This document shows, piece by piece, positions 11,682 through 29,003 of a stretch of 37,141 nucleotides of DNA. The first letter of the stretch is position 1. Each line of letters begins with the position of its first letter. The notes under the pieces were generated by a model that did no database searches, was not told the origin of the DNA, and saw only the letters and a program-made list of their open reading frames with translations. The stretch covers positions 1-37,141 of the forward strand of contig JAMXCX010000013.1 in NCBI GenBank assembly GCA_024542985.1, given 5' to 3'. Position numbers and translations under genes: made by a program. Source of the stretch: Candidatus Omnitrophota bacterium (GTDB lineage: Bacteria; Omnitrophota; Gorgyraeia; Duberdicusellales; 4484-171).

Positions 11682-11696
11682 ATCATACCTCCTCAA

Positions 11697-13849: not shown

Positions 13850-13878
13850 TTTATACTTTCCTTTATTTATATAATATT

Positions 13879-14223
13879 TTATATTTCTACCGGCTTACTA
13901 AAAATCTCGTTGAAGCGCTTATCTACGAAAGCTTTGGTATCCTTATCCAAAATGTCAAATTTGGCTAAAATATCCCGGGCATAATCAGTAAGAATTGCGC
14001 CTCCGCCATATTTACCGCCTTTAGTTCTTATTAAAAGAGGCCGGCCTAGTCTTTTCTCTATTGATTTTATATAGCTCCAGGCGTGACGATAAGACATATT
14101 AAGTTCTTGGGCTGCTTTGTTAAGAGAACCAGTCCTGGCAATGCTTTTTAAAATCTCTGATTTTCCTGTACCAAAAATGAGTTTTCCCTTACTGTCAATC
14201 CAGACTTTCGACTTTACTCGCAT
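13879..14223 (-). CDS. ModE-like winged-helix DNA-binding protein without molybdate domain
   Basis: The 114-residue protein corresponds to the N-terminal LysR-type helix-turn-helix domain of ModE. SLNKAAQELNMSYRHAWSYI is the recognition region and LGRPLLIRTKGGKYGGGAILT the wing. ModE's C-terminal TOBE (molbindin) domains that bind molybdate are absent. It may regulate molybdenum genes, but it cannot sense molybdate in the usual ModE way. It overlaps the mobA end by 10 bp and precedes moeA, which supports a local link to molybdenum metabolism. Confidence 0.87.
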   Translation of the reverse strand: MRVKSKVWIDSKGKLIFGTGKSEILKSIARTGSLNKAAQELNMSYRHAWSYIKSIEKRLGRPLLIRTKGGKYGGGAILTDYARDILAKFDILDKDTKAFVDKRFNEIFSKPVEI

Positions 14224-14830: not shown

Positions 14831-16345
14831 TTAGAAATAAATGTCTCTCTCGCCCTTTTTTACCCTATCGTAGTATTCCATAAATTGAGGAAAAACACCA
14901 GGCAAAGTCTGCTTTATCTCCTGAATTTCTCTATTTATAACTTTCTTGGCTATTTTCTTTGTTTCTTCACTGGCAAAATCATCAAGCCATTCTCTAAACG
15001 TAAGCACAGCATTAAGCTTACAGAATTTGCCTTCCTTACCGGCCCGCAAAAGCTCCATAATACATTCACCCGTCCTTCCGCAACGATACCCGGCGGTGCA
15101 GAATGAAGTGATACTTCCTGCTTTAGCAAATTCCTGAATAACTTCCTCAAGGCTGCGGGTATCGGATAAAAGAAACTGCTGCCTTAAACCTTCCTGATTA
15201 TCGCTTCTATCGCTATATGAGCCAATACCTATTTTTGATGAGGCATCAGTTTGAGTAATACCCAAAGCAATTGATTCTTTCTTAATCTGAGGACTTTCCC
15301 GGCAGGTGATAATCATTCCGGCATGCGGGATACTGAGACGAAGAACTAAGATTAGCTTTTTAAAATCCTCATCGGATACTTTATATTTAGGGCTCTCTGT
15401 AAACGGCGTATTAGTTGCCGGCTCTAAGCGCGGAAAAGATACGGTATGGGCACCAATGCCGAATTTTTTCTCCAGCTCTCTATTGTGAGCAACCAAACCC
15501 ATCACCTCATATCTCCAATCATACAAGCCGAATAAGGCGCCTAAGCCTATATCATCTACACCAGCCTCCAAAGCTCTATGCATAACGTAAAGTCGCCAAA
15601 GATAATCAGATTTAATAGTCCCTTGGGGATGTACATCTTGATAAGTTTTTCGGTGATAAGTTTCCTGAAATACTTGATAAGTACCAATACCAACCCCTTT
15701 TAATCTTTTTAATTCCTCAATAGCCAGCGGCGGAGCATTAACATTAACCCTACGTATCTGGCCAACCCTATTCTTGCTCTTACCCTCAACCTTAACCTCA
15801 GCCTCAACCTTATATATTGTTTTTATTGTATCAACCATATAATCTATATCATTTGCCGGGTGTTCCCCATAAACAACAATTAAGCGCTTATGTCCGATTT
15901 GGCCAGCGAGTATTTTGGTTTCAGCTTCAATTTCAGCCAGGCTAAGAACTTTTCTTTTAGTGTATTTATTAGACTTGCGAAACCCACAATAGGAACAATC
16001 ATTAACACAAAAATTTCCTAAATAGAGAGGAGCAAAAGTTACGATTCTATTATCATAGACTTTTTTCTTAACTTTAAATGCCACCTCTTTCATCTTTTCC
16101 AAATTCTTGGAGTCGCTAACAGACAAGAGATAAGCGGTCTCGTCAAGGTTTAGAGTTTGAATACTTAATGACTTATCGAGTATATCCTGAAATTTTTTTG
16201 AATCAGACTTTTTTGACCTTTTAAGTCTTGAGTCAATGTTACTGTTGAATATAAAATCTCCTTTTTGCAGATATTTTTCTATCTGGTGATTTTTAATCCT
16301 TTGCTTGTCCCAAAAATCAATCTTACTTACCTTAATACCTAGCAT
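14831..16345 (-). CDS. hydG: HydG-family radical SAM tyrosine lyase, variant C-terminal cluster site
   Basis: HydG cleaves tyrosine and delivers an Fe(CO)2(CN) synthon for hydrogenase H-cluster assembly. The radical SAM motif is Cys113-Cys117-Cys120 (NFCVNDCSYCGF), followed by HydG-typical RRVNVNAPPLAIEELKRL, GIGTYQVFQETYH and DDIGLGALFGLYDWR. The C-terminal CX2CX22C site is altered: Cys416 and Cys442 are kept, but the middle position is Gly419 (codon GGG at 15089-15091). New cysteines are present at 422 and 428. Residues 179-188 form a charged insertion made of hexamer repeats. The ATG at 16345 (AAGG, 7-nt spacing) is preferred to a TTG at 16366, giving 504 residues. ThiH was considered, but the C-terminal domain is HydG-like. 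Confidence 0.9.
   Translation of the reverse strand: MLGIKVSKIDFWDKQRIKNHQIEKYLQKGDFIFNSNIDSRLKRSKKSDSKKFQDILDKSLSIQTLNLDETAYLLSVSDSKNLEKMKEVAFKVKKKVYDNRIVTFAPLYLGNFCVNDCSYCGFRKSNKYTKRKVLSLAEIEAETKILAGQIGHKRLIVVYGEHPANDIDYMVDTIKTIYKVEAEVKVEGKSKNRVGQIRRVNVNAPPLAIEELKRLKGVGIGTYQVFQETYHRKTYQDVHPQGTIKSDYLWRLYVMHRALEAGVDDIGLGALFGLYDWRYEVMGLVAHNRELEKKFGIGAHTVSFPRLEPATNTPFTESPKYKVSDEDFKKLILVLRLSIPHAGMIITCRESPQIKKESIALGITQTDASSKIGIGSYSDRSDNQEGLRQQFLLSDTRSLEEVIQEFAKAGSITSFCTAGYRCGRTGECIMELLRAGKEGKFCKLNAVLTFREWLDDFASEETKKIAKKVINREIQEIKQTLPGVFPQFMEYYDRVKKGERDIYF
15784..15813 (-). repeat. Five hexamer units inside hydG
   Basis: Five near-identical 6-bp units lie in tandem. On the minus strand they read ATAAGG, TTGAGG, CTGAGG, TTAAGG and TTGAGG. 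They keep the reading frame and encode the Lys/Val/Glu-rich segment KVEAEVKVE at about residues 179-187, which looks like extra sequence compared with remembered HydG proteins. Confidence 0.6.
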
Positions 16346-16349
16346 TATT

Positions 16350-16988
16350 TTACCTTTTTTTTGCAAAAAATATCAAGCTTTTCAGCTCGCAGGCCATATC
16401 CACATTAGAAACTGATACATTATCCGGAACCTTAAGTACAACCGGAGCAAAATTTAATATTCCCCTTATACCTGCCGAAACCAGGGTTTCTGCTATGGGT
16501 TGGGCAACATCAGGAGGAGTTGAAAGTATTGCGATTTTAATATTATTTAATTTCACAACTTTCTTTAAATCCTTAATATCCTCTATCCTAACATTTTTTT
16601 TCACTCTTCCTATTTTTGTTTTATCACTGTCAAAAACATGGGCTATTTTGATATTAAACCTGGAGAAGCCTTCAAAACCTAAAAGAGCACTCCCCAGCTT
16701 TCCTACACCAACAATAGCAATATCCCACTTATTGTTGACTCCTAATATGTTTTCTATTTCTTCTATCAGGCGCCCTACATTATAGCCAACCCCTCTTTTA
16801 CCAAAACCACCAAAATAGGATAAGTCTTTTCGAAATTGCTCAGGGCTGACATTAAGAAATTGAGTTATTTTATCAGAAGAAATAATATCAACGCCGGTTT
16901 CTTTTAACTCTTTAAGATTACGCAAATACAGTCCGAGGCGCTTAATACTTTCTAAGGAAAAACTATTTTTGCTCTTATTATTCTTCAT
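16350..16988 (-). CDS. rex: Redox-sensing transcriptional repressor Rex
   Basis: Rex represses its targets when NAD+ is high and leaves DNA when NADH rises. The 212-residue protein has the N-terminal winged helix, with the recognition segment FRKDLSYFGGFGKRGVGY, and a Rossmann domain starting AIVGVGKLGSALLG. The C-terminal swap helix region also matches the family. It overlaps the HypC-HydE stop by 4 bp (ATGA) and is 4 bp upstream of hydG. A perfect Rex operator stands before the first gene of the hydrogenase operon, so Rex probably controls that operon and itself. Confidence 0.96.
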   Translation of the reverse strand: MKNNKSKNSFSLESIKRLGLYLRNLKELKETGVDIISSDKITQFLNVSPEQFRKDLSYFGGFGKRGVGYNVGRLIEEIENILGVNNKWDIAIVGVGKLGSALLGFEGFSRFNIKIAHVFDSDKTKIGRVKKNVRIEDIKDLKKVVKLNNIKIAILSTPPDVAQPIAETLVSAGIRGILNFAPVVLKVPDNVSVSNVDMACELKSLIFFAKKR

Positions 16989-18298
16989 CTATTAGTTACT
17001 GCTATGCCTAAATCTGTCGGAGCTCGGCCTAAAGATTTAAGTAAAGAGATCGTCTCTTCAATCTGACCCTCAACAGAGGCTGCTATGTATGCCTTATTAG
17101 GATAAATTGAATATTGCTTTCTGTATTTAATTGGTGTTAGATTAAGCATTACTGAATTTGCTCCACAAAGAAGCCCGGCTTGAGTCATATCAGCATTTAA
17201 GGTTTGCAGAGCAGTCGTTACTAATATTTTCGCGTTTTCAGGATCAATTAATCTAATTAGGGCCAATATTTTCAATACTTGTTCTTGACTTGGTGCAGAA
17301 AATTCTTTTAAGGGAGTGCTGGGATGTGGTATAAAGGGCCCGAAAGAATACATTTCTGCTCCTAGGGCTTTAGCTAAATATATATCATTAATGATATCTT
17401 CTTGACTCTGTCCCGGTAAACCAATGAGGCCCCCGGTCATAATCAAATATCCTTGCTTATACGCTCTTTTAATATGTTCGAGGCGACTATCAAGGTTTTG
17501 GCCGGGATGTAAGTTTTGGTATATCTTTTGGTTTGAAGTCTCAAACCTCATAAGTAAAGCTCTTGCTCCGGCCTGATAAAGCTCAGAAAGACCATCTAAG
17601 CCTACCTCACCAAAACTTATGCAAATCAATACTGGCACCCTCTCTTTGATTCTCCTTACAATACTAGCTAGTTCTTTAACGGTATAATTAGGGTCCTCCC
17701 CGCTTTGCAGCACTAAAGCCTGGAATCCATAAATTTTAACTGCTCCCACCGCCGCCTCAACAACTTCATCAGGGTTCATCCGGTAACGCCTAAGTGCGTG
17801 GTTATACGTAGATATACCGCAATAGTGACACCCCTTAGAACAATAATTTGAAATTTCAATTATTCCATGCACACAGCAAGAATTTTTATGAAATTTTTGA
17901 CGCAGAAAATTAGCCGCTTTAAAAAATAGCTCCCTTGACTCATCATTGTCTAAATTAGCTAAATAAATTAGCTCTTCCCTGTTAAGCTTGAACCCTTCAA
18001 GGATTTTATCCAAAACTTTAGTAAGTTTCTTATCGATATTTTCGCGGTCAAAATCCAAACGGGAAAGCCTCAAGTCAACATCCCGGAGTTCAAAAAAAAG
18101 CTCTCTCCAAGCTGATAAGATTTCTTTTGCTTCTTGGGGTGCGACCTTCTTTATTACATGTCCACCTTGGGCGCAGATATAATCGCCTATTTTTAAGTCA
18201 TAAAACTCATTAAGAGCTTTTTTTTCTTCGCCGAAATAATCAACCACAATGCTTTTCTCGTTAATTTCTTTTACTTGTCCGGGAATAGCATAACACAT
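16985..18298 (-). CDS. HypC-HydE fusion protein (hydrogenase maturation chaperone plus radical SAM maturase)
   Basis: One 437-residue reading frame joins two maturation factors. Residues 1 to about 65 match HypC, the chaperone that carries the Fe(CN)2CO unit to [NiFe] large subunits: MCYAIPGQV with the essential Cys2, then KIGDYICAQGGHVIKKV. The conserved second-motif His of HypC aligns with Gln44, and a His stands three residues later. A helical linker follows. Residues about 96-437 match HydE, a radical SAM enzyme of [FeFe] H-cluster assembly: Cys153-Cys157-Cys160 (NYCSKGCHYCGI), RRYRM, LVLQSGEDP, ALLMRFETSN, GGLIGLPGQS, and a C-terminal LLCGANSVMLNLTP. The gene starts 2 bp after hypA with an AAGGA site and overlaps rex by 4 bp. 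Both halves are well conserved, so the fusion looks functional. Confidence 0.92.
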   Translation of the reverse strand: MCYAIPGQVKEINEKSIVVDYFGEEKKALNEFYDLKIGDYICAQGGHVIKKVAPQEAKEILSAWRELFFELRDVDLRLSRLDFDRENIDKKLTKVLDKILEGFKLNREELIYLANLDNDESRELFFKAANFLRQKFHKNSCCVHGIIEISNYCSKGCHYCGISTYNHALRRYRMNPDEVVEAAVGAVKIYGFQALVLQSGEDPNYTVKELASIVRRIKERVPVLICISFGEVGLDGLSELYQAGARALLMRFETSNQKIYQNLHPGQNLDSRLEHIKRAYKQGYLIMTGGLIGLPGQSQEDIINDIYLAKALGAEMYSFGPFIPHPSTPLKEFSAPSQEQVLKILALIRLIDPENAKILVTTALQTLNADMTQAGLLCGANSVMLNLTPIKYRKQYSIYPNKAYIAASVEGQIEETISLLKSLGRAPTDLGIAVTNR

Positions 18299-18300
18299 TT

Positions 18301-18552
18301 TTATTTTCCTTGTTCAATGTCAAAAGATACGACCTCTATTCTTGAAGCCAGGAAAAAATTAATTTCCAACTCGGCATTTTCTAAAATAGTACCTTTTGAT
18401 AATACTGCAAAAGTTTCTCGAAAAGAATCTTCTTTTATGCCGGTAAATTCGCCTATTTTTATCCTCACCCTTGATACAGCTTTAGCGCCTTCCCGCTCTG
18501 CGTGTTCTGATATGTTTTTAATCACTGGCTCAATTAAGTGTGTCTCGTGCAT
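18301..18552 (-). CDS. hypA: HypA-like nickel insertion protein lacking the zinc domain
   Basis: HypA delivers nickel to [NiFe] hydrogenase precursors, and its N-terminal Met-His-Glu binds Ni. This 83-residue protein begins MHETHLIEPVIKNI and has VSRVRIKIGEFTGI and the SFRETFAVLSKGTILENAELEI core. It has no cysteines at all, so the usual C-terminal zinc domain with two CxxC pairs is missing (the family is normally about 115 residues). The stop is 2 bp before the HypC-HydE start, so no frameshifted remainder can hide downstream. The start has a GGAG site with 7-nt spacing and overlaps the protease gene by 23 bp. Confidence 0.85.
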   Translation of the reverse strand: MHETHLIEPVIKNISEHAEREGAKAVSRVRIKIGEFTGIKEDSFRETFAVLSKGTILENAELEINFFLASRIEVVSFDIEQGK

Positions 18553-19006
18553 TTTTTATCTCCATTAATAATTTAGTTATTTCTTTAAGTGTACTATTTA
18601 ATTCTTTAGACATTCCTTCGCCGAATGAAACATCTTGGGGCTGAATACCTAAAAGATAAATACTCGCCTTTGTCTCAAGGCTAAGATAATCAAGAAACAT
18701 TTTTGGCGAAAGATCGTGGGTAGTAAAACCGCTTTTTACAATCTCTGATGAATCTAAAATATCGTAATCGCCGGCCTGTTTTTCTAAATGTATACAATCA
18801 ACGATTAAAATCGTACCGGGTTTTTCCTTAATAATCCTACCCATGTAGTTTTCCGGAGAAGTCCCAACATCGAAACATACTAGATTATTATTGCTGCCTA
18901 ATTTCTCAATAAGGATTGGGCCAAAGCCATCATCTCGTCGCAACGTATTACCAACTCCGACAATGACAACTTTTCCCTTAAGGATATCCTTAAATATATT
19001 CTTCAT
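18530..19006 (-). CDS. hycI: Hydrogenase maturation protease (HycI/HyaD family)
   Basis: This endopeptidase removes the C-terminal tail of the [NiFe] large subunit after nickel insertion. The 158-residue protein has GVGNTLRRDDGFGP (residues 17-30) and ILIVDCIH. TTHDLSP contains His97, and with Asp25 and Asp70 gives the expected nickel-sensing residues. The large subunit in this operon ends in a 35-residue tail after DPCYCCTER, a plausible substrate. The gene order protease-hypA-HypC-HydE places it at the start of the maturation block. Confidence 0.92.
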   Translation of the reverse strand: MKNIFKDILKGKVVIVGVGNTLRRDDGFGPILIEKLGSNNNLVCFDVGTSPENYMGRIIKEKPGTILIVDCIHLEKQAGDYDILDSSEIVKSGFTTHDLSPKMFLDYLSLETKASIYLLGIQPQDVSFGEGMSKELNSTLKEITKLLMEIKNARDTLN

Positions 19007-19009
19007 TTG

Positions 19010-19037
19010 AGCTGTAATCTTATAGCTTAAAGCTTTA
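19010..19037 (-). repeat. Degenerate heptamer repeat spacer (ATAAGCT-type)
   Basis: About four 7-bp units fill the gap between the HycF-like gene and the protease gene. On the plus strand they read AGCTGTA, ATCTTAT, AGCTTAA and AGCTTTA. A cleaner array of the same unit occupies the spacer on the other side of the HycF-like gene (19663-19690). Confidence 0.5.
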
Positions 19038-19646
19038 TTCAGCGGTCAAGGTAGTTTCTCTTCTACAGCGGGCACAGAGAATTTTTACCCTGTCCGAACG
19101 GCCGTGATCGCGTAAGGCTGATATAATATTTTGATCTATGATTCCGAGGTTCCTGAGACGGGAAAGATAAAGCGTAGGGCTTGAAAAGCTAAGTTCACCT
19201 ATACGCTGGACAATCCATTTTAAATGATCACGGCAAGCTATTGTAGCACCGCAAATTTCACAAAGCTGTAACTCTTTATCAATGCTTTCCTGGGCCTGGC
19301 TGCGGTCAAAAAATGAAAGCTCCCAGTCAGTAGAAAGTTTAATCCCTTCCTTGTCAGCAAGACAATTAGCCTCACATTCACCACAAAATATACAAGTGTC
19401 AGTGTAGTGAATCATAACCCTTGTTGGTACTTTTCTTCCATCAATAATATCTTTATAATCTATTGCTCCCGCCGGACAAACTTCACGGCAAGCGCCACAA
19501 CCAACACACTTCTGGTCATTGAATTTTGGCTGGCCCCGGAAATTCGGATGCAAAGTAGGCATAACTTTAGGAAACTTAGAAGTATAAGGTCCTTTTATTA
19601 CGGCTTTTATTGCTTCAATTAATTCTCTAATCTTCGGTAATTTCAT
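19035..19646 (-). CDS. HycF/NuoI-like ferredoxin subunit of the hydrogenase
   Basis: This peripheral electron-transfer subunit docks between the soluble module and the NuoB-like subunit. It has 203 residues. The first [4Fe-4S] site is Cys47-Cys50-Cys53-Cys57 (CVGCGACREVCP). The second is Cys85-Cys88-Cys91-Cys95. The C-terminal part adds CEICGATIAC (Cys129, Cys132, Cys138) and CARC (Cys191, Cys194), a probable metal site of the kind seen in HycF of formate hydrogenlyase and absent from plain NuoI. A conserved N-terminal block (MPTLHPNFRGQPKF) is typical of this family. It is the last structural subunit before the maturation genes. Confidence 0.88.
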   Translation of the reverse strand: MKLPKIRELIEAIKAVIKGPYTSKFPKVMPTLHPNFRGQPKFNDQKCVGCGACREVCPAGAIDYKDIIDGRKVPTRVMIHYTDTCIFCGECEANCLADKEGIKLSTDWELSFFDRSQAQESIDKELQLCEICGATIACRDHLKWIVQRIGELSFSSPTLYLSRLRNLGIIDQNIISALRDHGRSDRVKILCARCRRETTLTAE

Positions 19647-19662
19647 ATTTATCTTTGCTTGC

Positions 19663-19690
19663 AGCTTATAGCTTATAGTTTATAGCTGAT
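19663..19690 (-). repeat. Heptamer repeat spacer (ATAAGCT-type)
   Basis: Four consecutive 7-bp units, on the plus strand AGCTTAT, AGCTTAT, AGTTTAT and AGCTGAT, lie between the mnhG-like and HycF-like genes. The last unit reaches the mnhG stop codon. Confidence 0.65.
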
Positions 19691-20025
19691 CAGGCTTCCC
19701 CTTCTTTATCCTTAGCATACTCATCAACAACACTATCCTTGCAAAGTTTAACTCCTGCTCTATGTGCGCCTCGGGCAATTGCATGTGCGGCTACCGGTGA
19801 AGTCAAGATAAGAAAAGCCATACACATAAGCGCTTTAAACCCGGCAGCAGTAAAACCAACCACTAAAAAAGTTCCGAATAGTATACTGCAAGTACCTAAG
19901 GTAACACATTTAGTTGAGGCCTGCAGACGGTTATAAACATCCGGCAGGCGCACAAGACCTAAACAGCCGATAACGTCAAAAAATAAACCAATACTAATAA
20001 ATACTAAACCGATAATGTCACTCAT
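19690..20025 (-). CDS. mnhG: Mrp/Mbh antiporter subunit MnhG-like (MbhC)
   Basis: This small membrane subunit (111 residues, three predicted helices) belongs to the Mrp-type sodium/proton antiporter module. The family block IGLFFDVIGCLGLVRLPDVYNRLQ is split over helix 1 and the loop, and KALMCMAFLILTSPVAAHAIARGAHRAG is in helix 3. The ATG at 20025 has GGAG with 8-nt spacing and is preferred over the adjacent in-frame TTG at 20028. It overlaps mnhF by 8 bp. Confidence 0.92.
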   Translation of the reverse strand: MSDIIGLVFISIGLFFDVIGCLGLVRLPDVYNRLQASTKCVTLGTCSILFGTFLVVGFTAAGFKALMCMAFLILTSPVAAHAIARGAHRAGVKLCKDSVVDEYAKDKEGEA

Positions 20026-20413
20026 CAAAACTTCTCCCTTCCAAATATTTGGAAAGTGCTAAGGTGCTTATAAAACTCTGTAAGGCCCAGGCAATTGCGA
20101 TATCCATATACCATGACCTTTGGGTTGAAATAGTTAATACCGCGCATAAGCCGACAATCATAATACCTAAAATATCAATCGCGACAATTCTATCAGCTCC
20201 AGTCGGCCCTCTGGCAATCCGATAAAGAGAAAGCACACAAGCAAGAATAAAAATATAAATAGCCCGGCCTAAAAATCCGCTGTAAGGCAAGCCGGGAAAA
20301 CAAAGAAAAGGTAAGGGGCGAATAATAATTAAAGCAAGTAAAGCCGCCAGAGAAAGCGCGCCTAAAAACCATCTCGCTTTCTTTATCTCACGAGCTTCGT
20401 TTATTTTATCCAT
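20018..20413 (-). CDS. mnhF: Mrp/Mbh antiporter subunit MnhF-like (MbhB)
   Basis: This 131-residue membrane protein carries the MnhF hallmark LYRIARGPTGADRIVAIDIL. It is longer than usual because of about 40 extra N-terminal residues containing one more hydrophobic segment (ALSLAALLALIIIRPLPFL). It is expected to sit in the ion-translocating part of the complex with MnhE and MnhG. It lies 13 bp after mnhE. Confidence 0.9.
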   Translation of the reverse strand: MDKINEAREIKKARWFLGALSLAALLALIIIRPLPFLCFPGLPYSGFLGRAIYIFILACVLSLYRIARGPTGADRIVAIDILGIMIVGLCAVLTISTQRSWYMDIAIAWALQSFISTLALSKYLEGRSFDE

Positions 20414-20426
20414 AGTTTAATATCCT

Positions 20427-20924
20427 CTATTCAAAAATTTTAGTTAATATTCTTTCAAAACGCTCGACTACTATTTTTGTAGCTGATTCAATATCTTTTG
20501 CTTTTACATCAATCCAATGTACATAGAGAATGCCTTCATCTTTATTAATATCTACGGTTAAAGTCCCGGGAGTAAGAGTTATAGAATTAGCTAAAAAAGT
20601 AAGGGCCGTGTCTGTCTTTAACTTAGTTTTTACCTTAACAATCCCCGGCCTTATCGGCAGGCGTGGATGTAATACCCTGTAAGCAACATCAATATTAGCT
20701 TTAAAGCACTCCCACAAAAATACAGGCAAATACCAGGTGAAAAAATACCAGTAACGTAAGTGATGCTTTACTGTATACTGTCTCTCTGTGAACAAATCAG
20801 CGGTTATAAAAACAACCAGCAAAGATGCGAGCGCACCGATAATAAGGTGTTGAGTATCCGGCACCCAATTTAGGAATACCCAGGTCACAAACGCGATAAT
20901 AAATAGAGCTGTTTTACGTTTCAA
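20427..20924 (-). CDS. mnhE: Mrp/Mbh antiporter subunit MnhE-like (MbhA)
   Basis: This 165-residue protein starts with two hydrophobic segments. It then shows the MnhE family pattern HHLRYWYFFTWYLPVFLWECFK, split at the second helix, followed by RPGIVKVKTKLKTDTALTFL and NSITLTPGTLTVD, ending in a soluble alpha/beta domain. It belongs to the Mrp module that couples electron transfer to sodium or proton movement. It starts 2 bp after the mnhD stop. Confidence 0.92.
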   Translation of the reverse strand: MKRKTALFIIAFVTWVFLNWVPDTQHLIIGALASLLVVFITADLFTERQYTVKHHLRYWYFFTWYLPVFLWECFKANIDVAYRVLHPRLPIRPGIVKVKTKLKTDTALTFLANSITLTPGTLTVDINKDEGILYVHWIDVKAKDIESATKIVVERFERILTKIFE

Positions 20925-20926
20925 AT

Positions 20927-22423
20927 TTATCCTCCTAAAATCACTTGAGAGTACCTTGTGCCTTCCAATAACACCCTTACGGCTTTATCCAAGAAAACTT
21001 CCTTTACTGCCGGCAAGAATAAAAGCCCTCCCCCCAAACATATTAAAGCCAGCATACTCATTGATATTTTCATGCAAAGAGGCACTTCTTTTACCTGGCT
21101 CCATTTCTCTTTTAACTGCCCAAAAAATGCATACTTCATAACTTTCATAAAAGAAGCTAAAGTTAAAATACTGGCAATAACTGCCCAGAGCGCATATCCA
21201 TACCTGTTAGCTTGGACAGCGGCAATTATAATAATTAATTTGCTCCAGAAACCACTAAAAGGAGGGATACCGGCTATTGACATTGAAGCAGTTAAGGCTG
21301 TAGCTGAAGTCACCGGCATCTTTTGAGCTAACCCTCCCATTCTCTTTAAATCACGAGTTCCGGTCGCATACTCAACAGCTCCTGAGTTTAAAAATAATAA
21401 TGACTTAAATACTGAGTGATTAAATAAATGGAATAATCCTCCGGCTATTCCTAGAGGTGTACCCAAACCAATACCTAAAATAACATAGCCAATCTGGCTT
21501 ATAGAGTGGTAAGCGAGCAATCTTTTTAAATCCCATTGCCCAATAGCTAAAAATACACCTATGACCATAGATAAAGTCCCTAAAACCATTAAAATCGAAG
21601 AAAGCGAAGAACTTATTCCGATAACATTATAAAATAGCCTGCATAAAGTATACACACCCAAAGATTTTATTAATACCCCGGAAAGCATTGCTGATATGGG
21701 CGCCGGAGCTGAAGAATGAGCATCAGGAAGCCAGGCATGAAAAGGAACTAAAGCTGCCTTTAGGCCAAAACCCATAAGGAATAGAGCGCTCACCATTAGC
21801 ACTAAATTGGAAGCCCCTTTATCAGCTAAAATAGAAGCCATATCGGCCATATTCAAGGTAGAAGTATAACTGTACAAAAAGACAATTCCTAAAAGTATGA
21901 ACAGTGAACCTACAGTGCTCATCACTGCGTACTTAAATGCTGCCTCAAGCTCATGACGCTCAGTTCCAAAAGCAACTAAAGCATAGCTTGCCACTGAAGC
22001 TATCTCTAAAAATACAAAAAGATTAAATATGTCACCGGTTATTATTACACCGTTCATTCCTGCTAGCATGAGCAGGAATAAAGTATAGAATTTGTCCTTG
22101 GAGGTGAATTTCTTCATATAATTTACTGCATAAAGAGCAATAAAAAAGGCGACTAAATTCACCGTAACCAGCATAAAAGAAGTCAAGCCGTCTAAGACCA
22201 ATGTTATTCCTAAAGGTATTCTCCAATTGCCAACGTTATAAACAACAACACCTTTATCTGCTACTACATATACCGCTAAAACAGAAAGGCACAATAAAGC
22301 CAGGACTGTTAAATTTCCTAATATATCCGGCAGCAATTTTATTTTCCGGCCCAGTAAGGAAACTAAAAAAGCACCTAAAAGTGATATGCCTACAAAAAGC
22401 GGTACAATCCAAGACATTTCCAT
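20927..22423 (-). CDS. mnhD: Antiporter subunit MnhD-like (MbhH), intact pumping residues
   Basis: This large antiporter-type membrane subunit of the NuoL/M/N family has 498 residues and about 14 helices. The TM5 glutamate is present in FVFLEIASVASYAL, and the TM7 lysine is present in GLKAALVPFHAWLPDAHSSAP. AYHSISQIGYVILG and GGLFHLFNHSVFKSLLF follow. The ATG at 22423 (AAAAGG with 6-nt spacing) is preferred over the ATG at 22429, which touches the ribosome-binding site. It is one of two antiporter-like subunits in the operon and the one with the canonical charges. Confidence 0.94.
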   Translation of the reverse strand: MEMSWIVPLFVGISLLGAFLVSLLGRKIKLLPDILGNLTVLALLCLSVLAVYVVADKGVVVYNVGNWRIPLGITLVLDGLTSFMLVTVNLVAFFIALYAVNYMKKFTSKDKFYTLFLLMLAGMNGVIITGDIFNLFVFLEIASVASYALVAFGTERHELEAAFKYAVMSTVGSLFILLGIVFLYSYTSTLNMADMASILADKGASNLVLMVSALFLMGFGLKAALVPFHAWLPDAHSSAPAPISAMLSGVLIKSLGVYTLCRLFYNVIGISSSLSSILMVLGTLSMVIGVFLAIGQWDLKRLLAYHSISQIGYVILGIGLGTPLGIAGGLFHLFNHSVFKSLLFLNSGAVEYATGTRDLKRMGGLAQKMPVTSATALTASMSIAGIPPFSGFWSKLIIIIAAVQANRYGYALWAVIASILTLASFMKVMKYAFFGQLKEKWSQVKEVPLCMKISMSMLALICLGGGLLFLPAVKEVFLDKAVRVLLEGTRYSQVILGG

Positions 22424-22425
22424 TG

Positions 22426-22764
22426 TCATCCTTTTAATTCTCTAATTTTAGTAATATCAAAAGTTCCGTATTTCTCATAAATGCGCATGGCAATAACTAC
22501 AAGCAAAGATGTAACTGCCAGGCCAATTACAATTGAAGTAAGCACTAGTGCCTGGGGAAGAGGGTCTACCATATTAATGATTTCTGTATCCGGTGAAAGA
22601 ATCGGTGAACGGCCATTCTTGCGATAAGCAACTAAGATAAACAAAAGATTCACTGCATATTCAGCAATGATAATACCGACAATAATTTTAATAATATTGC
22701 GTTTTCGTAAAATACAGTAAAGCCCTATACAAAAAAGCACCAAACACAAAAAGTAAATTATCAT
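22426..22764 (-). CDS. mnhC: Antiporter subunit MnhC/NuoK-like (MbhG)
   Basis: This 112-residue membrane protein has three helices and is homologous to NuoK. A glutamate is buried in IIIAEYAVNLLFIL (helix 2), and the MnhC motif VDPLPQALVLTSIVIGLAV begins helix 3. It overlaps mnhB at the start by 4 bp and the next gene near its stop, so translation is likely coupled. Confidence 0.93.
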   Translation of the reverse strand: MIIYFLCLVLFCIGLYCILRKRNIIKIIVGIIIAEYAVNLLFILVAYRKNGRSPILSPDTEIINMVDPLPQALVLTSIVIGLAVTSLLVVIAMRIYEKYGTFDITKIRELKG

Positions 22765-23213
22765 TTCTTCTCTCCCTTCTCCAGCTTTAACATGGCAAGA
22801 GCGACAAATATCGCAAAAAGGCCGGCACCTACCTTTAAACCTATAGCAATATTACAAAGAGGAATAGTCCCGGCGCTAAAAAGCCTGAATGCCTCTCCTT
22901 TAGGAATAAAATTTAAAAAGAAATAGCCTCCGCTAAATCCCAGAAGGCCTATAGCTAAAAATAAAAGCGCACCTGTGCTTTCAAAAAAAGAGGCTGTTTT
23001 TTTAGACAGCTTGCGCAAAGCTACATCTTTACCATAAGCCAACATAAGATGGATAAAAGAAAGGGCAATAATAACCCCTCCGGCAAACCCGCCGCCGGGC
23101 GAAATATGGCCGTGCAAAACAATATAAACCCCATAAAGAAATATCATTCCCACAGTAAGACGGGTAACTGTCTTTACGATCACTGACATGCCTTGCTCAT
23201 GCTCTTTACTCAT
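22761..23213 (-). CDS. mnhB: Antiporter subunit MnhB-like (MbhF)
   Basis: This 150-residue membrane protein has the MnhB signature GHISPGGGFAGGVIIA after its first helix, followed by three more hydrophobic segments. In Mrp and Mbh complexes this subunit lines the ion path next to the MnhA C-terminal domain, which here is the preceding gene. The gene overlaps its upstream neighbour by 8 bp. Confidence 0.93.
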   Translation of the reverse strand: MSKEHEQGMSVIVKTVTRLTVGMIFLYGVYIVLHGHISPGGGFAGGVIIALSFIHLMLAYGKDVALRKLSKKTASFFESTGALLFLAIGLLGFSGGYFFLNFIPKGEAFRLFSAGTIPLCNIAIGLKVGAGLFAIFVALAMLKLEKGEKK

Positions 23214-23754
23214 CGTCTTTCTCTATAACCTCATTTTCTTTTTTACGCCCTTGGCGGCGCACGAGTGTAAGCACTCCAATAACTGCTGTAAATAACACAG
23301 TAGCCTCACCTAAGGTGTCATAAGCTCTGAAATCAAGAATTACTGAACTAACAAGGTTAACAGCGCCGGTTTTGGTTAATCCTTCAGCTAAGTAGCTCCG
23401 TGCGACTCTCATTATCGGATTGCCGAATTCAGGCAAAAGCTGCAAGGCATCCTTAGCAATATATAAAAATAAGGCGATAAAGCCAATTGCAATAACAGTA
23501 TTAAAAAACCAGCGGCCGGTAGTTGAAAAGGGAAGGTCTTTTTTTAAGGTCGCTTGAATTAATATAATAAGGCACAATATCTCAACTACAAGCTGGGTAA
23601 TAGCTACATCCGGCGCTTTTAGTAAAAGAAATACTATTGAAAGGCCTAAGCCTACAGCACCAACAGCGATTACTGAAGATAAAAGATCCTTCACTTCTAT
23701 GGCAACTATTGCCCCAATAATCATAAATATTAATAAAATATAAAGCTCTAGCAT
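23206..23754 (-). CDS. MbhD-MbhE-like subunit (MnhA C-terminal region)
   Basis: This 182-residue membrane protein corresponds to the C-terminal part of MnhA, which in archaeal membrane hydrogenases is split into MbhD and MbhE. The first part shows the DUF4040-type segment SVIAVGAVGLGLSIVFLLLKAPDVAIT followed by QLVVEIL, in which the acidic residues are conserved. The second shows ILDFRAYDTLGEATVLFTAVIG, typical of MbhE. Both halves are fused here. It starts 1 bp after the preceding antiporter gene. Confidence 0.87.
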   Translation of the reverse strand: MLELYILLIFMIIGAIVAIEVKDLLSSVIAVGAVGLGLSIVFLLLKAPDVAITQLVVEILCLIILIQATLKKDLPFSTTGRWFFNTVIAIGFIALFLYIAKDALQLLPEFGNPIMRVARSYLAEGLTKTGAVNLVSSVILDFRAYDTLGEATVLFTAVIGVLTLVRRQGRKKENEVIEKDDE

Positions 23755-23755
23755 G

Positions 23756-25411
23756 CTACTTTAGTAAAATATAAAAAATTATCCCCATACCTAGAAGGCA
23801 CCAGCTAAGATAAGTCGACAAAACCCCATTATGCAAGAAGCGTAAAATCCGGTTAAAACCAAAAGTTATTTTTGAGCCTACGTTATATATATCAAATATT
23901 TTTTTTTGGGCTAATTTATATATTATTTTTAAAAATCCTATCTCCTGAATTGTATTATAAAAGTCTCCTCCGGAAACCCGCATTTGAGGGTATTTAGCTA
24001 GGTCTTCCCCGCCGATAAACACCTTAGTTTCTCTTGTTTTAATAACTTTACCTAAAAGATAAATCGCCGCACCAATCAATATACCAACAACTATCAGAAG
24101 AGTAGCAAGGCTTGAATTCCATACCCCTAAAAATTGTACCTTGCTTCCTAAGCTGGGAATGATAAACATCTTAAGCGGAATTTGATAAGCGAACACGCCA
24201 AAGATAATACATAACGAAGCCAGGATAATTGTCGGTATCCGGATAAAAATAGAGGTTTCACGTATTTTAGGTTTTTTGCCCTCTCGGCTCTGGGATGGCT
24301 GTCCTAAAAACACAGCATGGATTAATTTCATAAAACTAGCTAAGGTAAGCGCACTACCAAACATTGCTGCCACCAGCCAGACTATCCAAAGGTACCCTCC
24401 ACTTTTTGCTGTCTCAATTATACCCTGGTATATCATCCATTTTGAAGCAAAGCCGTTAAATGGCGGAATTCCGGATATAGCAAACGAAGCTACTAAAAAA
24501 CTAATAAATGTTATTGGCATAATTTTAGCAAAACCACCTAATTTATCTAAATCAGTTGTTTTAGCTTCTTTTTCAACTGCTCCGCCGGAAAAGAATAAGC
24601 AGGATTTATAAATTGCGTGGTTTAACATATGGAACAATCCTCCGGCTATGCCGATAGGATTACCAGTGCCAATACCTAAAACCATATAACCAACCTGGCT
24701 TACAGCGTGATAACCCAAGAGCCTTTTTAAATCATGCTGGATAAGGGCCATCATAACCGCAGCTACAATGGTGAAGCTACCTACCACCATTAAAAATGTA
24801 TTCATAGCAGCATCCATTTTAAAAATATACAGTGAAATCCTGGCTAAAAAGTATATACCTAATAATTTATCCAAAGAAGCCGGCAAAAAAGCAGTGACCG
24901 GAGTAGGCGCGTCTTCGGCTGTGTCCGGAATCCAGGTATGAAACGGCATAGCTCCAGCTTTAGCCAAAGCCCCTATAGCCAAACACAAATAAGCATAAAC
25001 CGCTAATTTGTTATTTAAAATAATGCTTAGTTTGTCCATTGCAAATGTGCCGCTAATGCGCCAGATAAGAGCAATACCCAAAAGCATAACGGCATCGGTT
25101 CCGCCGATGATTATAAATGTTTTTTTAGCAGTAGCGGAAGTGTTCTCCTTTTCTCCAAAACCGATTAATAGATACAAAAGAAGCCCTAACAAACCCCAGA
25201 ATATTATAAATACTATCAAGTGATTGGCAAAAACCACCCCTAAAGAAGCGAAAAGAGTAAAAATAATATACGCATAATACGCGAACTGCCTTTTCTTGCC
25301 ACGCATGAAACCAATTGAATAGATAATAGTAATTATCGAAAAAAAAGCAACAAAAGCCGCAATAAAATTAGAAAGGTAATCAAATTTAAAAAATCGCTCA
25401 ATAAAACTCAT
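23756..25411 (-). CDS. Second antiporter-like subunit (NuoL/MnhA-N type) with altered TM5
   Basis: This 551-residue protein is of the NuoL/M family. The TM7 lysine region is intact (GALAKAGAMPFHTWIPDTAED), and the later YHAVSQVGYMVLG and GGLFHMLNHAIYKSCLFF motifs are present. The TM5 motif, WEGVGLCSYLLIGF in NuoL, reads WGLLGLLLYLLIGF here, so the key glutamate is Gly73 (codon GGT at 25193-25195). The last about 90 residues continue past the core as an amphipathic stretch and a final helix, resembling a NuoL or MbhI lateral helix. It follows the large subunit gene with a 4-bp overlap. Confidence 0.9.
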   Translation of the reverse strand: MSFIERFFKFDYLSNFIAAFVAFFSIITIIYSIGFMRGKKRQFAYYAYIIFTLFASLGVVFANHLIVFIIFWGLLGLLLYLLIGFGEKENTSATAKKTFIIIGGTDAVMLLGIALIWRISGTFAMDKLSIILNNKLAVYAYLCLAIGALAKAGAMPFHTWIPDTAEDAPTPVTAFLPASLDKLLGIYFLARISLYIFKMDAAMNTFLMVVGSFTIVAAVMMALIQHDLKRLLGYHAVSQVGYMVLGIGTGNPIGIAGGLFHMLNHAIYKSCLFFSGGAVEKEAKTTDLDKLGGFAKIMPITFISFLVASFAISGIPPFNGFASKWMIYQGIIETAKSGGYLWIVWLVAAMFGSALTLASFMKLIHAVFLGQPSQSREGKKPKIRETSIFIRIPTIILASLCIIFGVFAYQIPLKMFIIPSLGSKVQFLGVWNSSLATLLIVVGILIGAAIYLLGKVIKTRETKVFIGGEDLAKYPQMRVSGGDFYNTIQEIGFLKIIYKLAQKKIFDIYNVGSKITFGFNRILRFLHNGVLSTYLSWCLLGMGIIFYILLK

Positions 25412-26595
25412 TTTATTCCCATTTTATCTTTTATCTTTTGCGTTTTCTCCTGAGAAAGCTTAACCAAGTCTTGGCCATCATAAATCTTTTTACCTTTAAG
25501 GGTACGCACCGCTACTCTTTCTGTACAACAATAGCAAGGGTCAATAGCAGCTAAAATTATCGTAGCATCGGAAATAGTCTCACCGATAACAGTAGCTTTA
25601 TAAGTCGGTAAATTCATAAAAGTAGGAGCCCTGACTTTATGCCGGGCCGGCCTATTCGTTCCATCGCTAAGCACATAATGAAAACACTCACCTCTGGGAG
25701 CCTCAATATGGCCAATGCCTTCGCCCGGCGGTATGTTCTTAATCTTAGCATCTATTTCACCCTTAGGTAGATCTTTAAGACACTGCTTAACTATTTTTAT
25801 TGATTCAAACGTTTCTAACACTCTCACCAGTAGCTTATCAAATACATCCCCATTCTGAGTAACTATCATATCCCACTCGAGCTTATCATAAACACCATAG
25901 GGACAATCTTTACGTATATCTCTGGCAACACCGGAAGCGCGGGAAGTTGGGCCTAATGCACAATAACTTATAGAATCTTCCTTAGTAAGAACTCCTACCC
26001 CTTTAGTGCGGGCATGTAAAACCGGATCATCTATGACTGCCTTTTTGAGCATTACCAATGTGGGTATGATTGAATCGATCTTTTTAACAACACCGGGAAT
26101 ATCGTCAGGATTGATATCTCTTCTTACCCCTCCCGGCTTAAACATGGCATAGTTATTTCTGTTGCCGGATAAAATTTCCATTACGTCTAGTATCTCTTCT
26201 CTAAGTTTCCAAGCCCACATATATACTGTATTATAACCTAAAAAATGTCCGGCTAAGCCCAGCCATAAAAGATGTGAATGAATTCTTTCACCTTCAGCAA
26301 TAATAGTACGTATGTACTTTGCCCGCTCAGGCACCTCTATAGAGATAATATCCTCTACTGCCCGTGTATAGGCAAAAGGATGGGAAGTTGAACAAATACC
26401 GCAAATCCTCTCTACTAAAAAAGTTGATTGATCAAAGCTTTTACTCTCAGAAAGTTTCTCAATCCCCCGATGATTCCAGCCCACGCGGACATCAATATCG
26501 ACTATTTTTTCACCCTCAACAGTAAGAGTAAAAAATTCCGGCTCTTCCTGTAAGGGGTGATAAGGCCCTATTGGTACGATTGTTTTTTTAGCCAT
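25408..26595 (-). CDS. mbhL: Group 4 [NiFe] hydrogenase large subunit (NuoD/MbhL-like)
   Basis: This is the catalytic subunit for H2 evolution or uptake. Both nickel-ligand pairs are intact: Cys65 and Cys68 in RICGICSTSH, and Cys354 and Cys357 in DPCYCCTER. It is therefore a true hydrogenase and not a complex I or Mbx-type homologue. A 35-residue tail after TER (VAVRTLKGKK onward) matches a cleavable C-terminal extension and fits the hycI protease in the same operon. The 395-residue length and the MAKKTIVPIGPYHP start are typical of group 4. The gene overlaps the NuoC-like stop by one base. Confidence 0.96.
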   Translation of the reverse strand: MAKKTIVPIGPYHPLQEEPEFFTLTVEGEKIVDIDVRVGWNHRGIEKLSESKSFDQSTFLVERICGICSTSHPFAYTRAVEDIISIEVPERAKYIRTIIAEGERIHSHLLWLGLAGHFLGYNTVYMWAWKLREEILDVMEILSGNRNNYAMFKPGGVRRDINPDDIPGVVKKIDSIIPTLVMLKKAVIDDPVLHARTKGVGVLTKEDSISYCALGPTSRASGVARDIRKDCPYGVYDKLEWDMIVTQNGDVFDKLLVRVLETFESIKIVKQCLKDLPKGEIDAKIKNIPPGEGIGHIEAPRGECFHYVLSDGTNRPARHKVRAPTFMNLPTYKATVIGETISDATIILAAIDPCYCCTERVAVRTLKGKKIYDGQDLVKLSQEKTQKIKDKMGIK

Positions 26596-27068
26596 TACAC
26601 TCCTCTATCGCGAATTGCATTTTTATCCCACTCTTTATAATCTCTCCTTAAAGGGTACACCCCTTGAGGCCAATCATCAGGAAGAAGAAGCCGTATCAAA
26701 TTAGGATGGCCTTTAAAATTTATACCTAAAAGTTCGTTTATCTCCCGTTCAATCCAATCTGCAGCCTTAAAAACAGATGTCAGTGAATCGATTTCTAATT
26801 TCTTCTTATCTAATTTTACCCTTAAAGTAATAACTACATTTATATCTTCAAAAGTAAAATGATAAAGAATCTCCATGTGGGAATATACATCTACTCCGGA
26901 AGCAATGCTGAATCTGGCTCCTAAGTTTTTAAAAATATAAGTTGCGATTTCGACTATCGCGCAGGAGTTAATTTCAATGTATATTCTCCTAGTCGACCTC
27001 TCGATAATATCAATTATCTGAGCCTTAAATTTTTCTTTCAAATTATGCAGGACTTCGGTTTTAGTCAT
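26595..27068 (-). CDS. mbhK: NuoC-like hydrogenase subunit (MbhK/EchD)
   Basis: This 157-residue soluble subunit is homologous to the 30-kDa subunit of complex I and stabilises the large subunit. The family motif appears as FKAADWIEREINELLGINFKGHP, broken across one helix, followed by RLLLPDDWPQGVYPLRRDY. Overlaps with both neighbours (4 bp and 1 bp) indicate coupled translation. Confidence 0.94.
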   Translation of the reverse strand: MTKTEVLHNLKEKFKAQIIDIIERSTRRIYIEINSCAIVEIATYIFKNLGARFSIASGVDVYSHMEILYHFTFEDINVVITLRVKLDKKKLEIDSLTSVFKAADWIEREINELLGINFKGHPNLIRLLLPDDWPQGVYPLRRDYKEWDKNAIRDRGV

Positions 27069-27499
27069 TTTTTAGTAATACTTTTTTTGACTTTACCAAT
27101 TAATTTTACTATCCCAGCTATAATTGCTTCCGGCCGAGGCGGGCATCCCGGAATATAAACATCAACCGGAATAACTTTATCCAGCGGTAAAGGACAATTG
27201 TAACTGTGAATAAACATGCCTCGAGATAAAGAACACTCTCCTATTGCTACCACCAGACAAGGCCTAGGCATTTGTTCATAGACGTCTTTAATCCGTGGAA
27301 TGCAATTTCGATTAACAGAACCGGTCACTAAAAGTACATCGGCATGCTTAATACTGCCGACTAAAAGCATACCAAACCTTTCTATGTCAAACCGCGGGGT
27401 AAGACAGTCTAATATTTCGATGTCGCAATTATTACAACTGCCGGTAGAAAGATGGAATACCCAGGGTGATTTCAATAATGCTTTTAATTTAAAACTCAT
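27065..27499 (-). CDS. mbhJ: Hydrogenase small subunit (NuoB/MbhJ-like)
   Basis: This subunit carries the [4Fe-4S] cluster nearest the Ni-Fe site. The 144-residue protein shows the ligands in STGSCNNCDIEILDCL, VAIGECSLSRGMF and VYIPGCPPRPEAI, the standard group 4 pattern with no extra clusters. It lies between the NuoH-like and NuoC-like subunits, 14 bp after the former. Confidence 0.95.
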   Translation of the reverse strand: MSFKLKALLKSPWVFHLSTGSCNNCDIEILDCLTPRFDIERFGMLLVGSIKHADVLLVTGSVNRNCIPRIKDVYEQMPRPCLVVAIGECSLSRGMFIHSYNCPLPLDKVIPVDVYIPGCPPRPEAIIAGIVKLIGKVKKSITKK

Positions 27500-27513
27500 A
27501 ACTTACTAATATT

Positions 27514-28437
27514 TTATAAACCATTTAAAGCTAAAATAACTGCTACTATTGCGATGATTGTCATCGGCCCCCAAAAAAACCTAACTGCCTGGTCAATTCT
27601 AACTCGAGGGTTAGTATTCCTTATAACAGTTATAAGAGCGACTAAACCAATATATTTTAAAATGCCGTAAAAAATGTGTATGCCGGAAAAAACAAAACCG
27701 CCCATCAAAAGAATCATACAAAAAAACGGCAATACAAAAAGAAGCATATTTTTAGTAAGTTTATACATGGCAAGGCCTGAGCCTGAATATTCAACTAAGG
27801 GGCCGCCGATAAGTTCGGTCTCTGCTTCCGCCATATCAAAAGGAACCAAGGCTAATTTTGCCTGTATGCACATTGCAATTACGATAAAAGCTAATACTCC
27901 GGATAAGCTTCCTATAATAGCGCCGTTTTGAGCTTGAAAATTTAAAATCTCACCAAGCTTAATAGAAAATCCTGATTGGATAACCGGAACTAATACTGCT
28001 AAAATAAAAGGGAGCTCATAGGCTAGGATGAGTTTCATCTCCCGGGAGGCCCCTATGCTGGCTAAAGGATTCCTCGACGCAAAACCGCCGATGATGATAC
28101 TTATTGAGGGCAAAGTTAATAAATACAACACCACTATCAAATCCCCTAAAAAACTCTGGTTAAAGTTAATATTATTAAGCCAGAGTAAAGTCGATACTAC
28201 TACCACGCTGGCAAACCCAAGAACCGGAGCCGCCAAAAAAGTTATTTTTGATGAACCTGCAGGAATAAGAGTCTCCTTTCCCAGCAACTTTACAATATCA
28301 ATTAAAGGCTGTAAAATCGGCGGGCCTACCCGATACTGCACCCTGGCTGTAACTTTTCGGTCAATCCAGCTAGCAACCAGCCCGATTGCTGCTGTTGCCA
28401 GAAAACCTAAAACTAAAAGGTAATATATATATATCAT
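27514..28437 (-). CDS. mbhM: NuoH-like membrane anchor subunit (MbhM/EchB)
   Basis: This 307-residue membrane protein with about eight helices links the hydrogenase core to the ion-pumping module. Family motifs are DRKVTARVQYRVGPP near the N terminus, ETLIPAG, AYELPFILAV, and LALVPFDMAEAETELIGGPLVEYSG. The ATG at 28437 overlaps the ferredoxin stop (ATGA) and has GAGG with 8-nt spacing. An in-frame TTG at 28455 is less likely. Confidence 0.95.
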   Translation of the reverse strand: MIYIYYLLVLGFLATAAIGLVASWIDRKVTARVQYRVGPPILQPLIDIVKLLGKETLIPAGSSKITFLAAPVLGFASVVVVSTLLWLNNINFNQSFLGDLIVVLYLLTLPSISIIIGGFASRNPLASIGASREMKLILAYELPFILAVLVPVIQSGFSIKLGEILNFQAQNGAIIGSLSGVLAFIVIAMCIQAKLALVPFDMAEAETELIGGPLVEYSGSGLAMYKLTKNMLLFVLPFFCMILLMGGFVFSGIHIFYGILKYIGLVALITVIRNTNPRVRIDQAVRFFWGPMTIIAIVAVILALNGL

Positions 28438-28991
28438 ACGTTTTGCCTCTGCCAATGCCTAGAATGAACTATAATATTATCACCAACTAAAAATGTATTC
28501 TCGTCGAGCTTAATATCACCGTTTTTTAAACTCAATGCGCCATAAGGGCAAGTTTGAATACATAATGGTTCATTGGTTTTTTCTCTCCTGTCTAAACAAA
28601 AATCACAATTATGCACTAAGAAAGGGACATTTTCCGGATAAATTGCTCCGTAAGGACAAGCGTGTGAACAGGACTTGCAACTTACACAACGCATATTATG
28701 ACGTATCAACATATTATCTTTTTCCTTTTGCTGTTCAATAGCCTCGAAAGGACAAGAATTAACGCAGTGGGGTTCTTCACACTTGCGGCAAACAAGCGCA
28801 TAGGTTGCCAATTCTACTACTGTAGCAATACCATTATTAGCAGGATGATAAAAATAACTGCATTTAACAACGCAATCTTTACACTCTCCTGACGCGCAAA
28901 CATCAAGGTCAATAAAAAGCCTGGCATCGCTTCCCTTCTGCGGCTCGATATTTAGTTTTCCGTTATAAAGCTGCTGTGCACCTGTACTCAT
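28434..28991 (-). CDS. Polyferredoxin subunit (HydN/CooF-like, about four [4Fe-4S] clusters)
   Basis: This 185-residue iron-sulfur protein has cysteine groups arranged as in the HydN/HycB/CooF family: ECKDCVVKC, CRKCEEPHCVNSCP, MRCVSCKSCSHACP, and CDFCLDRREKTNEPLCIQTCP. Such proteins pass electrons between a partner dehydrogenase or flavin module and a membrane hydrogenase. Here it sits between the flavin subunit and the membrane anchor. It could also serve a formate dehydrogenase encoded outside the window. Confidence 0.9.
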   Translation of the reverse strand: MSTGAQQLYNGKLNIEPQKGSDARLFIDLDVCASGECKDCVVKCSYFYHPANNGIATVVELATYALVCRKCEEPHCVNSCPFEAIEQQKEKDNMLIRHNMRCVSCKSCSHACPYGAIYPENVPFLVHNCDFCLDRREKTNEPLCIQTCPYGALSLKNGDIKLDENTFLVGDNIIVHSRHWQRQNV

Positions 28992-29003
28992 TTTATACTG
29001 ATT

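Follow-up and report, generated by a model that had tools for sequence, protein, structure and literature searches.

Introduction

According to a review of May 2025, anaerobic synthesis of the [NiFe] hydrogenase cofactor needs six Hyp proteins, and the source of its CO ligand is unresolved (PMC12134894). In the Hyp route, Cys2 of HypC and Cys41 of HypD are the proposed holders of the Fe(CN)2CO group, which HybG, a protein of the HypC family, carries towards the apo large subunit (PMC8692609). In the [FeFe] route, the ligands of the H-cluster derive from tyrosine (PMC3105041), and HydG passes Fe(CN)(CO)2(Cys) directly to HydE (PMC12752695). Here we describe a maturation cassette in which a HypC domain is fused to HydE and is encoded close to HydG, behind a group 4 [NiFe] hydrogenase. 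It lies in a stretch of 37,141 nucleotides of contig JAMXCX010000013.1 (assembly GCA_024542985.1) of a Candidatus Omnitrophota bacterium, analyzed as a whole and referred to below as the window. We consider it highly likely that HypC-HydE and HydG form an alternative module that replaces HypD, HypE and HypF for the iron half of the [NiFe] site. The cassette is a case of known protein families in a new pathway, and we found no description of a HypC-HydE fusion or of HydG-dependent [NiFe] maturation in the open-access literature, the search not extending to subscription papers and preprints.

Results

HypC-HydE takes the place of HypD

A first-pass annotation of this DNA, made from the letters alone, had read HycI, HypA, HypC-HydE, Rex and HydG as contiguous genes behind the group 4 [NiFe] hydrogenase, and all five were recovered at those positions on the minus strand (Table 1). 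It had also reported HypD, HypE, HypF, HydF and [FeFe] HydA as absent from the window, an observation that extends to the whole genome (1.57 Mb, 88% complete), where profile searches matched neither HypD nor the [FeFe] catalytic domain PF02906 and gave no HydF, HypE or HypF over cut-off. G091, a single contig of 1,668,697 bases with no N that is titled 'curated complete', carries one [NiFe] large subunit (61% identical to that of the window), HycI, HypC-HydE and HydG at separate places, together with HypB, which was also found in four cassette loci. Searches of G091 with tblastn found neither HypD nor HypF, only paralogue-level matches to HypE and HydF, and a HydA match restricted to the N-terminal ferredoxin region, with no catalytic domain. 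Another single-contig genome (G004, 84% by the completeness measure) showed the same pattern, with the cassette about 70 kb from the hydrogenase.

We then compared 58 related genomes, sampled from genus to class level. The fusion was present in 16 and HypD in 16, and no genome carried both. HypE and HypF followed HypD, occurring only in HypD genomes, and neither was over cut-off in the 16 fusion-bearing relatives. Among 50 further fusion genomes HypD appeared in one (G068), as a fragment in a suspect bin, which gives 1 of 66 fusion genomes overall. We rejected this case as a real coexistence: HypE was on another contig and the fusion, 60% identical to that of the window, on a contig of 3 kb, and the combination is probably contamination. 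A group 4 large subunit was clear in 24 relatives, of which 13 had HypD without the fusion and 10 the fusion without HypD; none had both, and one (G011) had neither. The first-pass annotation had put forward a model in which HydG supplies CO and cyanide on iron, HydE modifies this unit and the fused HypC hands it to the large subunit. The search of the genome and its relatives for hypD, hypE, hypF, hydF and [FeFe] enzymes came out in favor of that model, as did the co-occurrence of the fusion with group 4 large subunits in genomes lacking HypD, which HypE and HypF track. As for G011 (89% complete, 5% contamination), it has a group 4 [NiFe] hydrogenase (L082) and HydG (G011:C118:3378-4790), and neither HypD, HypC-HydE nor an [FeFe] enzyme was detected in this 89% complete genome.

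A natural swap was observed in G038, whose hydrogenase operon is the same and whose large subunit shares 83% identity with that of the window. In the slot by HypA and HycI, this genome carries HypE-HypD-HypC-HypF where the window has HypC-HydE, Rex and HydG. Five switches are needed to explain how the two maturation sets are distributed on a large-subunit tree (35 group 4 sequences), at least three of them forced by well-supported branches. Together, these data indicate that HypC-HydE replaces HypD and that the two are mutually exclusive, even on closely related large subunits. The swap on 83%-identical large subunits and the three to five switches on the large-subunit tree are strong comparative evidence for a common function of the two sets.

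Two further features of the hyp genes were seen among the relatives. Broken pieces of HypD and HypF at G013:C11:19424-20586 suggest a decaying hyp operon. In six HypD-bearing relatives (L073, L074, L075, L076, L077 and G046), HypF is short, about 360-400 amino acids (aa), and matches only model positions of about 380-740, the acylphosphatase, zinc-finger and YrdC-like parts being missing.

The fusion carries a specialized HydE

The fusion protein consists of HypC (about residues 1-77), a long linker helix and a HydE radical S-adenosylmethionine (SAM) barrel (about residues 95-437), the last with the motif CSKGCHYC, a CX3CX2C arrangement of C153, C157 and C160. Its AlphaFold2 model had a predicted local distance difference test score (pLDDT) of 91.3 and a predicted template modeling score (pTM) of 0.91, and the best match among solved structures was Thermotoga maritima HydE, with a template modeling (TM) score of 0.94. 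Since the HydE part scored 244.9 bits against TIGR03956, just under the curated cut-off of 254.6, it is, judged by this score, a diverged HydE. The first-pass call of HypC-HydE therefore holds for the true fusion and the HydE fold and needs qualifying for the HydE part, which is under the equivalog cut-off and diverged.

Fused open reading frames (ORFs) recur in the 16 relatives that carry the fusion (in one of them truncated at the end of a contig) and in 80 loci from other genomes. The HypC N-terminus follows the Met-Cys-x-[AG]-[IV]-P pattern, reading MCYAIP in 76 of 77 distinct fusions and MCYALP in one. Cys2 is kept in all fusions and the HydE radical SAM motif is invariant, as is Gln44, which stands at the position of the histidine of the canonical HypC VHxGFA motif in 55/55 fusions aligned with standalone HypC. 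In G040 and G041 the hit table listed HypC and HydE as two pieces; we considered these as a split ancestral form and rejected the idea, as their ORFs are continuous.

In a HydE tree, 47 fused sequences fell on one side of a single branch, with full support in the Shimodaira-Hasegawa-like approximate likelihood ratio test (SH-aLRT 100), and 21 unfused sequences, including that of T. maritima, fell on the other. The fused proteins have N130, C142 and H144 in 77/77 cases and C141 in 74/77, positions at which HydEs of [FeFe] systems mostly have Asp (N130), His or Tyr (C142), Arg (H144) and Val (C141). Residues conserved in the [FeFe] HydEs are replaced in the fused ones, for example a threonine (T. 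maritima Thr134) that aligns with residue 226 of the window fusion. The HydG tree was of another kind: sequences from genomes with and without an [FeFe] enzyme were interleaved, with at least five label changes forced by starred branches, and the HydG of the window grouped with HydGs from [FeFe] operons of the same class. On these trees and residues, it is HydE that is specialized and HydG that is unspecialized, which goes beyond what the first-pass annotation had claimed. A candidate [NiFe]-specific change in HydG, CX5C (CTAGYRC) in place of CX2C in the C-terminal cluster motif, was rejected because it is also found in same-class HydGs from [FeFe] operons; other cassette HydGs carry CX2C. In G020 (loci L064 and L084), HydF and an [FeFe] enzyme are in one place and the [NiFe] cassette in another, with two HydEs, one fused and one unfused, and a single HydG adjoining the [NiFe] cassette; one HydG seems to feed both hydrogenase pathways in this genome.

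HydG is kept without an [FeFe] hydrogenase or HydF

Overall, HydG was over cut-off in 59/66 fusion genomes. Across the 50 further fusion genomes, an [FeFe] enzyme was present in 27 and HydF in 25, all of these among the 27. The 23 genomes without an [FeFe] enzyme contained HydG in 21 cases and HydF in none. Fusion-bearing relatives without an [FeFe] enzyme kept HydG in 13 of 15 cases, plus a fragment in G022, so that for both samples combined (n=38) HydG was over cut-off in 34 and HydF in 0. HydG was absent from all 15 HypD genomes that lack an [FeFe] enzyme.

An 85-aa ORF after HydG in L102 (12757-13014) shares about 50% identity with the end of HydF that binds the cluster, at its C-terminus. 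The genome has neither HydF nor an [FeFe] hydrogenase, and the ORF is a probable relic of a hydE-hydG-hydF operon. We considered HydF as a hidden scaffold and rejected a general role, since among the searched loci such a fragment next to HydG was found only in L102.

The cassette occurs across phyla and beside two types of [NiFe] enzyme

One scan of 84,980 species gave 197 confirmed relatives of the fusion family, whose record titles name about ten phyla. Among the best 80 of the 197, all of them fusions, these titles include Omnitrophota, WOR-1/Saganbacteria/Margulisbacteria, Elusimicrobia, Spirochaetes/Brevinematales, Caldatribacterium/Atribacteria, WOR-3, Auribacterota, Falkowbacteria, Mcinerneyibacterium, Chitinispirillaceae, Scalindua and others, the names being taken from titles of metagenome-assembled genome (MAG) records, which can be wrong. 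In 69 of these 80 loci, [NiFe] subunits were encoded within 10 kb on the same strand. The adjoining large subunit was of group 3 type in 46 loci and of group 4 type in 16, where the group 3 label reflects operon make-up (beta, FNR-like, small and large subunits) and similarity among loci rather than a classifier. HypD, HypE, HypF or HydF was found near the cassette in 0/80 loci and an [FeFe] subunit in 4/80. By its gene neighborhoods, the cassette has group 3-type enzymes in addition to group 4 [NiFe] enzymes as clients across many phyla, a wider range than the first-pass annotation had claimed. In G043, HypC-HydE, HypA and the protease adjoin a group 3-type [NiFe] operon (L065, G043:C9).

Gene order and neighboring genes in the window

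A single run of minus-strand genes extends from 30843 to 14831, with the Mrp-type group 4 [NiFe] hydrogenase (19035-30843) first and the maturation cassette last (Table 1). Within the cassette, HycI and HypA overlap, HypA and HypC-HydE are 2 bases apart, and HypC-HydE, Rex and HydG overlap; this spacing fits a single transcript behind the hydrogenase. HydG scored 429.5 bits against TIGR03955, over cut-off, and 440.9 bits against PDB 4wcx over residues 32-511. Both cysteine pairs (RICGIC, DPCYCC) are present in the large subunit, whose last 38 residues form the C-terminal tail for the protease.

Table 1. Features of the hydrogenase and maturation genes, in coordinates of the whole window.
Feature	Position	Strand	Evidence and remarks
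HydG, tyrosine lyase giving CO and cyanide on iron	14831..16366	-	511 aa, complete including C-terminal domain
Rex, NAD(H)-responsive repressor	16350..16988	-	NF003995, 255 bits; overlaps both neighbors
HypC-HydE fusion	16985..18298	-	437-aa ORF; PF01455 residues 1-64, TIGR03956 residues 96-407
HypC-like domain of the fusion	18068..18298	-	residues 1-77; MCYAIP, Cys2; Gln44 replacing canonical VHxGFA histidine
HypA-like Ni chaperone	18301..18552	-	83 aa, no zinc domain; PF01155, 58.6 bits
HycI-type hydrogenase maturation endoprotease	18530..19006	-	TIGR00142 and TIGR00072 (102 bits, over cut-off)
HycF-like ferredoxin subunit	19035..19646	-	NF009053, 84 bits
Mrp-type antiporter modules MrpG, F, E, D, C, B, A, D2	19690..25411	-	ORFs; MrpD2 family matches; operon kept in relatives
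Group 4 [NiFe] hydrogenase large subunit	25408..26595	-	cysteine motifs RICGICSTSH and DPCYCCTER; relatives 80-84% identical
[NiFe] hydrogenase small subunit	27065..27499	-	ORF and conserved operon position
Membrane subunit, HycB-like ferredoxin, FNR-like flavoprotein, 4Fe-4S subunit	27514..30843	-	ORFs; order kept in relatives

The first-pass call of HypA was upheld by its family match to PF01155, with the reservation that the protein has only 83 aa and no zinc domain. HypA of about 80 aa, ending before the zinc-binding domain, is common to this class (window 18301-18552; L055, L058, L073 and others). Loss of the zinc domain was rejected as a trait of the fusion system, as HypA is equally short in the HypD genome G038. 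Directly downstream of HydG, 23 bases away on the same minus strand, lies a run of molybdenum cofactor genes (MogA, MOSC, MoaC, MoaA, MoeA, a ModE-like regulator and a MobA-like gene; 10320-14807).

Discussion

We think it likely that all diatomic ligands of the [NiFe] iron come from tyrosine through HydG in these organisms, that the HypC-fused HydE makes and delivers Fe(CO)(CN)2, and that HypD, HypE, HypF and carbamoyl phosphate are unnecessary. The simplest union of the known routes would run from HydG to HydE, to the tethered HypC and to the large subunit. HydG would cleave tyrosine to CO and cyanide, assembled on an iron ion, and the HydE part, a radical SAM enzyme apparently specialized away from its [FeFe] role, would accept this unit and remodel it, probably to Fe(CO)(CN)2. 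Two tyrosines yield two CO and two cyanides, of which both CO and one cyanide are retained in the [FeFe] synthon, and the [NiFe] site requires two cyanides and a single CO; because of this difference in ligand sets, we propose that the fused HydE exchanges or selects ligands. The tethered HypC domain may hold the iron by its N-terminal cysteine and hand it over to the apo large subunit, and the invariant Cys142, in the strand that precedes the radical SAM loop, is a candidate to stand in for HypD Cys41 as second thiolate ligand. Nickel insertion by HypA and HypB and tail cleavage by HycI would stay conventional. We infer the reaction chemistry, the ligand stoichiometry and the direct handover in this scheme.

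The first-pass annotation had offered a simpler alternative, shared regulation with an [FeFe] hydrogenase encoded elsewhere. HydE and HydG would then serve that hydrogenase, and undetected Hyp proteins would mature the [NiFe] enzyme. Rex within the operon and the [FeFe] enzyme in 27 of 50 fusion genomes would suit this explanation, but it fails on the 38 fusion genomes that have neither an [FeFe] enzyme nor HydF, 34 of which keep HydG, and on the single contig of G091, which has none. Moreover, where both hydrogenases occur, HydF tracks the [FeFe] enzyme (25/27), and fused and unfused HydE are distinct types. For genomes without an [FeFe] enzyme the explanation is refuted unless such enzymes were missed in all of them, and we regard it as very improbable. 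That an assembly artefact or frameshift had joined separate HypC and HydE genes might be suspected from a single MAG window; however, 77 distinct full-length fused ORFs from many assemblies refute it and leave it a negligible probability, and the fusion is genuine, as first read.

The nature of the ligands allows other explanations. The cassette could mature the [NiFe] enzyme with another ligand set, for example Fe(CO)2(CN) straight from HydG, with HydE only a carrier or reductase. This would accord with an unspecialized HydG, whose known product is Fe(CO)2(CN) (PMC12752695), and with the loss from the fused HydE of several residues conserved in [FeFe] HydE. However, the large subunits served by the two modules are interleaved and up to 83% identical, suggesting the same site, and the HydE radical SAM motif is invariant; we judge this explanation unlikely. 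Less likely still is that HydG, which does make CO and could thus fill the unresolved place of the anaerobic CO source (PMC12134894), gives CO only, with cyanide coming from another, unrecognized enzyme. Cyanide is also a product of HydG, neither HypE nor HypF occurs in the 16 fusion-bearing relatives or in G091, and no other conserved candidate gene was noticed beside the cassette, although a systematic search was not made.

Several points weigh against our preferred reading, in which HydG, HydE and the fused HypC build the iron half of the [NiFe] site. The reading requires an exchange of ligands, since the known product of HydG is Fe(CO)2(CN) (PMC12752695). Four fusion genomes without an [FeFe] enzyme lack a full HydG, namely G022 (fragment, 68% complete), G043, G068 and G089, and G043 (96% complete, 10 contigs), with no detectable HydG, is the sole serious exception. 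The large-subunit and HydE trees came from a short search with no bootstrap, and most of the genomes are incomplete MAGs, completeness figures being absent for the 50 distant ones. Apart from the few genomes without detectable HydG, the model was supported in every comparative test of the sequences.

The cassette genomes represent a large natural set of [NiFe] hydrogenases that are apparently matured without HypD, HypE and HypF and are accompanied by an enzyme known to make CO and cyanide, and they point to an undescribed way of building a highly unusual metal center. If the proposed route is true, it offers a candidate answer to the anaerobic CO source question for these organisms, which are anaerobic and mostly uncultured. 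It would also mean that a ligand source can be common to two hydrogenase classes whose assembly lines were thought separate, and that fusing HydE to a different carrier can redirect its chemistry. The CO question becomes directly testable by tyrosine labeling, and the cassette suggests a compact gene set for the anaerobic production of [NiFe] enzymes.

Compared with the canonical HypABCDEF and endoprotease system of E. coli, the cassette shares a HypC-type carrier with an N-terminal cysteine, HypA, a HycI-type protease, HypB in at least some cassette genomes and the same [NiFe] large subunits as clients. It differs in having no HypD, HypE or HypF, in the fusion of HypC to HydE, in the glutamine that replaces the HypC histidine, and in ligands predicted to come from tyrosine rather than carbamoyl phosphate. 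With [FeFe] maturation by HydE, HydF and HydG it has in common a full-length HydG of the same type, with its C-terminal domain, and the HydE fold and radical SAM motif; unlike that system, it has no HydF or [FeFe] apoenzyme, and its HydE is fused to HypC and on its own side of the tree. In contrast to the HydE of that system, the fused HydE has C141-C142, H144 for Arg54 and aromatic or aliphatic residues for Thr134 (T. maritima numbering). HmdB, PylB and BioB belong to the same superfamily as the HydE part, and HmdB also acts in an iron-CO cofactor pathway; on the window fusion, HydE scored 244.9, PylB 162.6 and HmdB 68.6 bits. Finally, like the aerobic CO supply by HypX, the cassette adds an enzyme that would give CO to the [NiFe] site, but HypX uses formyl-tetrahydrofolate and works with HypCDEF, whereas HydG is anaerobic, uses tyrosine and occurs where HypD, HypE and HypF are missing.

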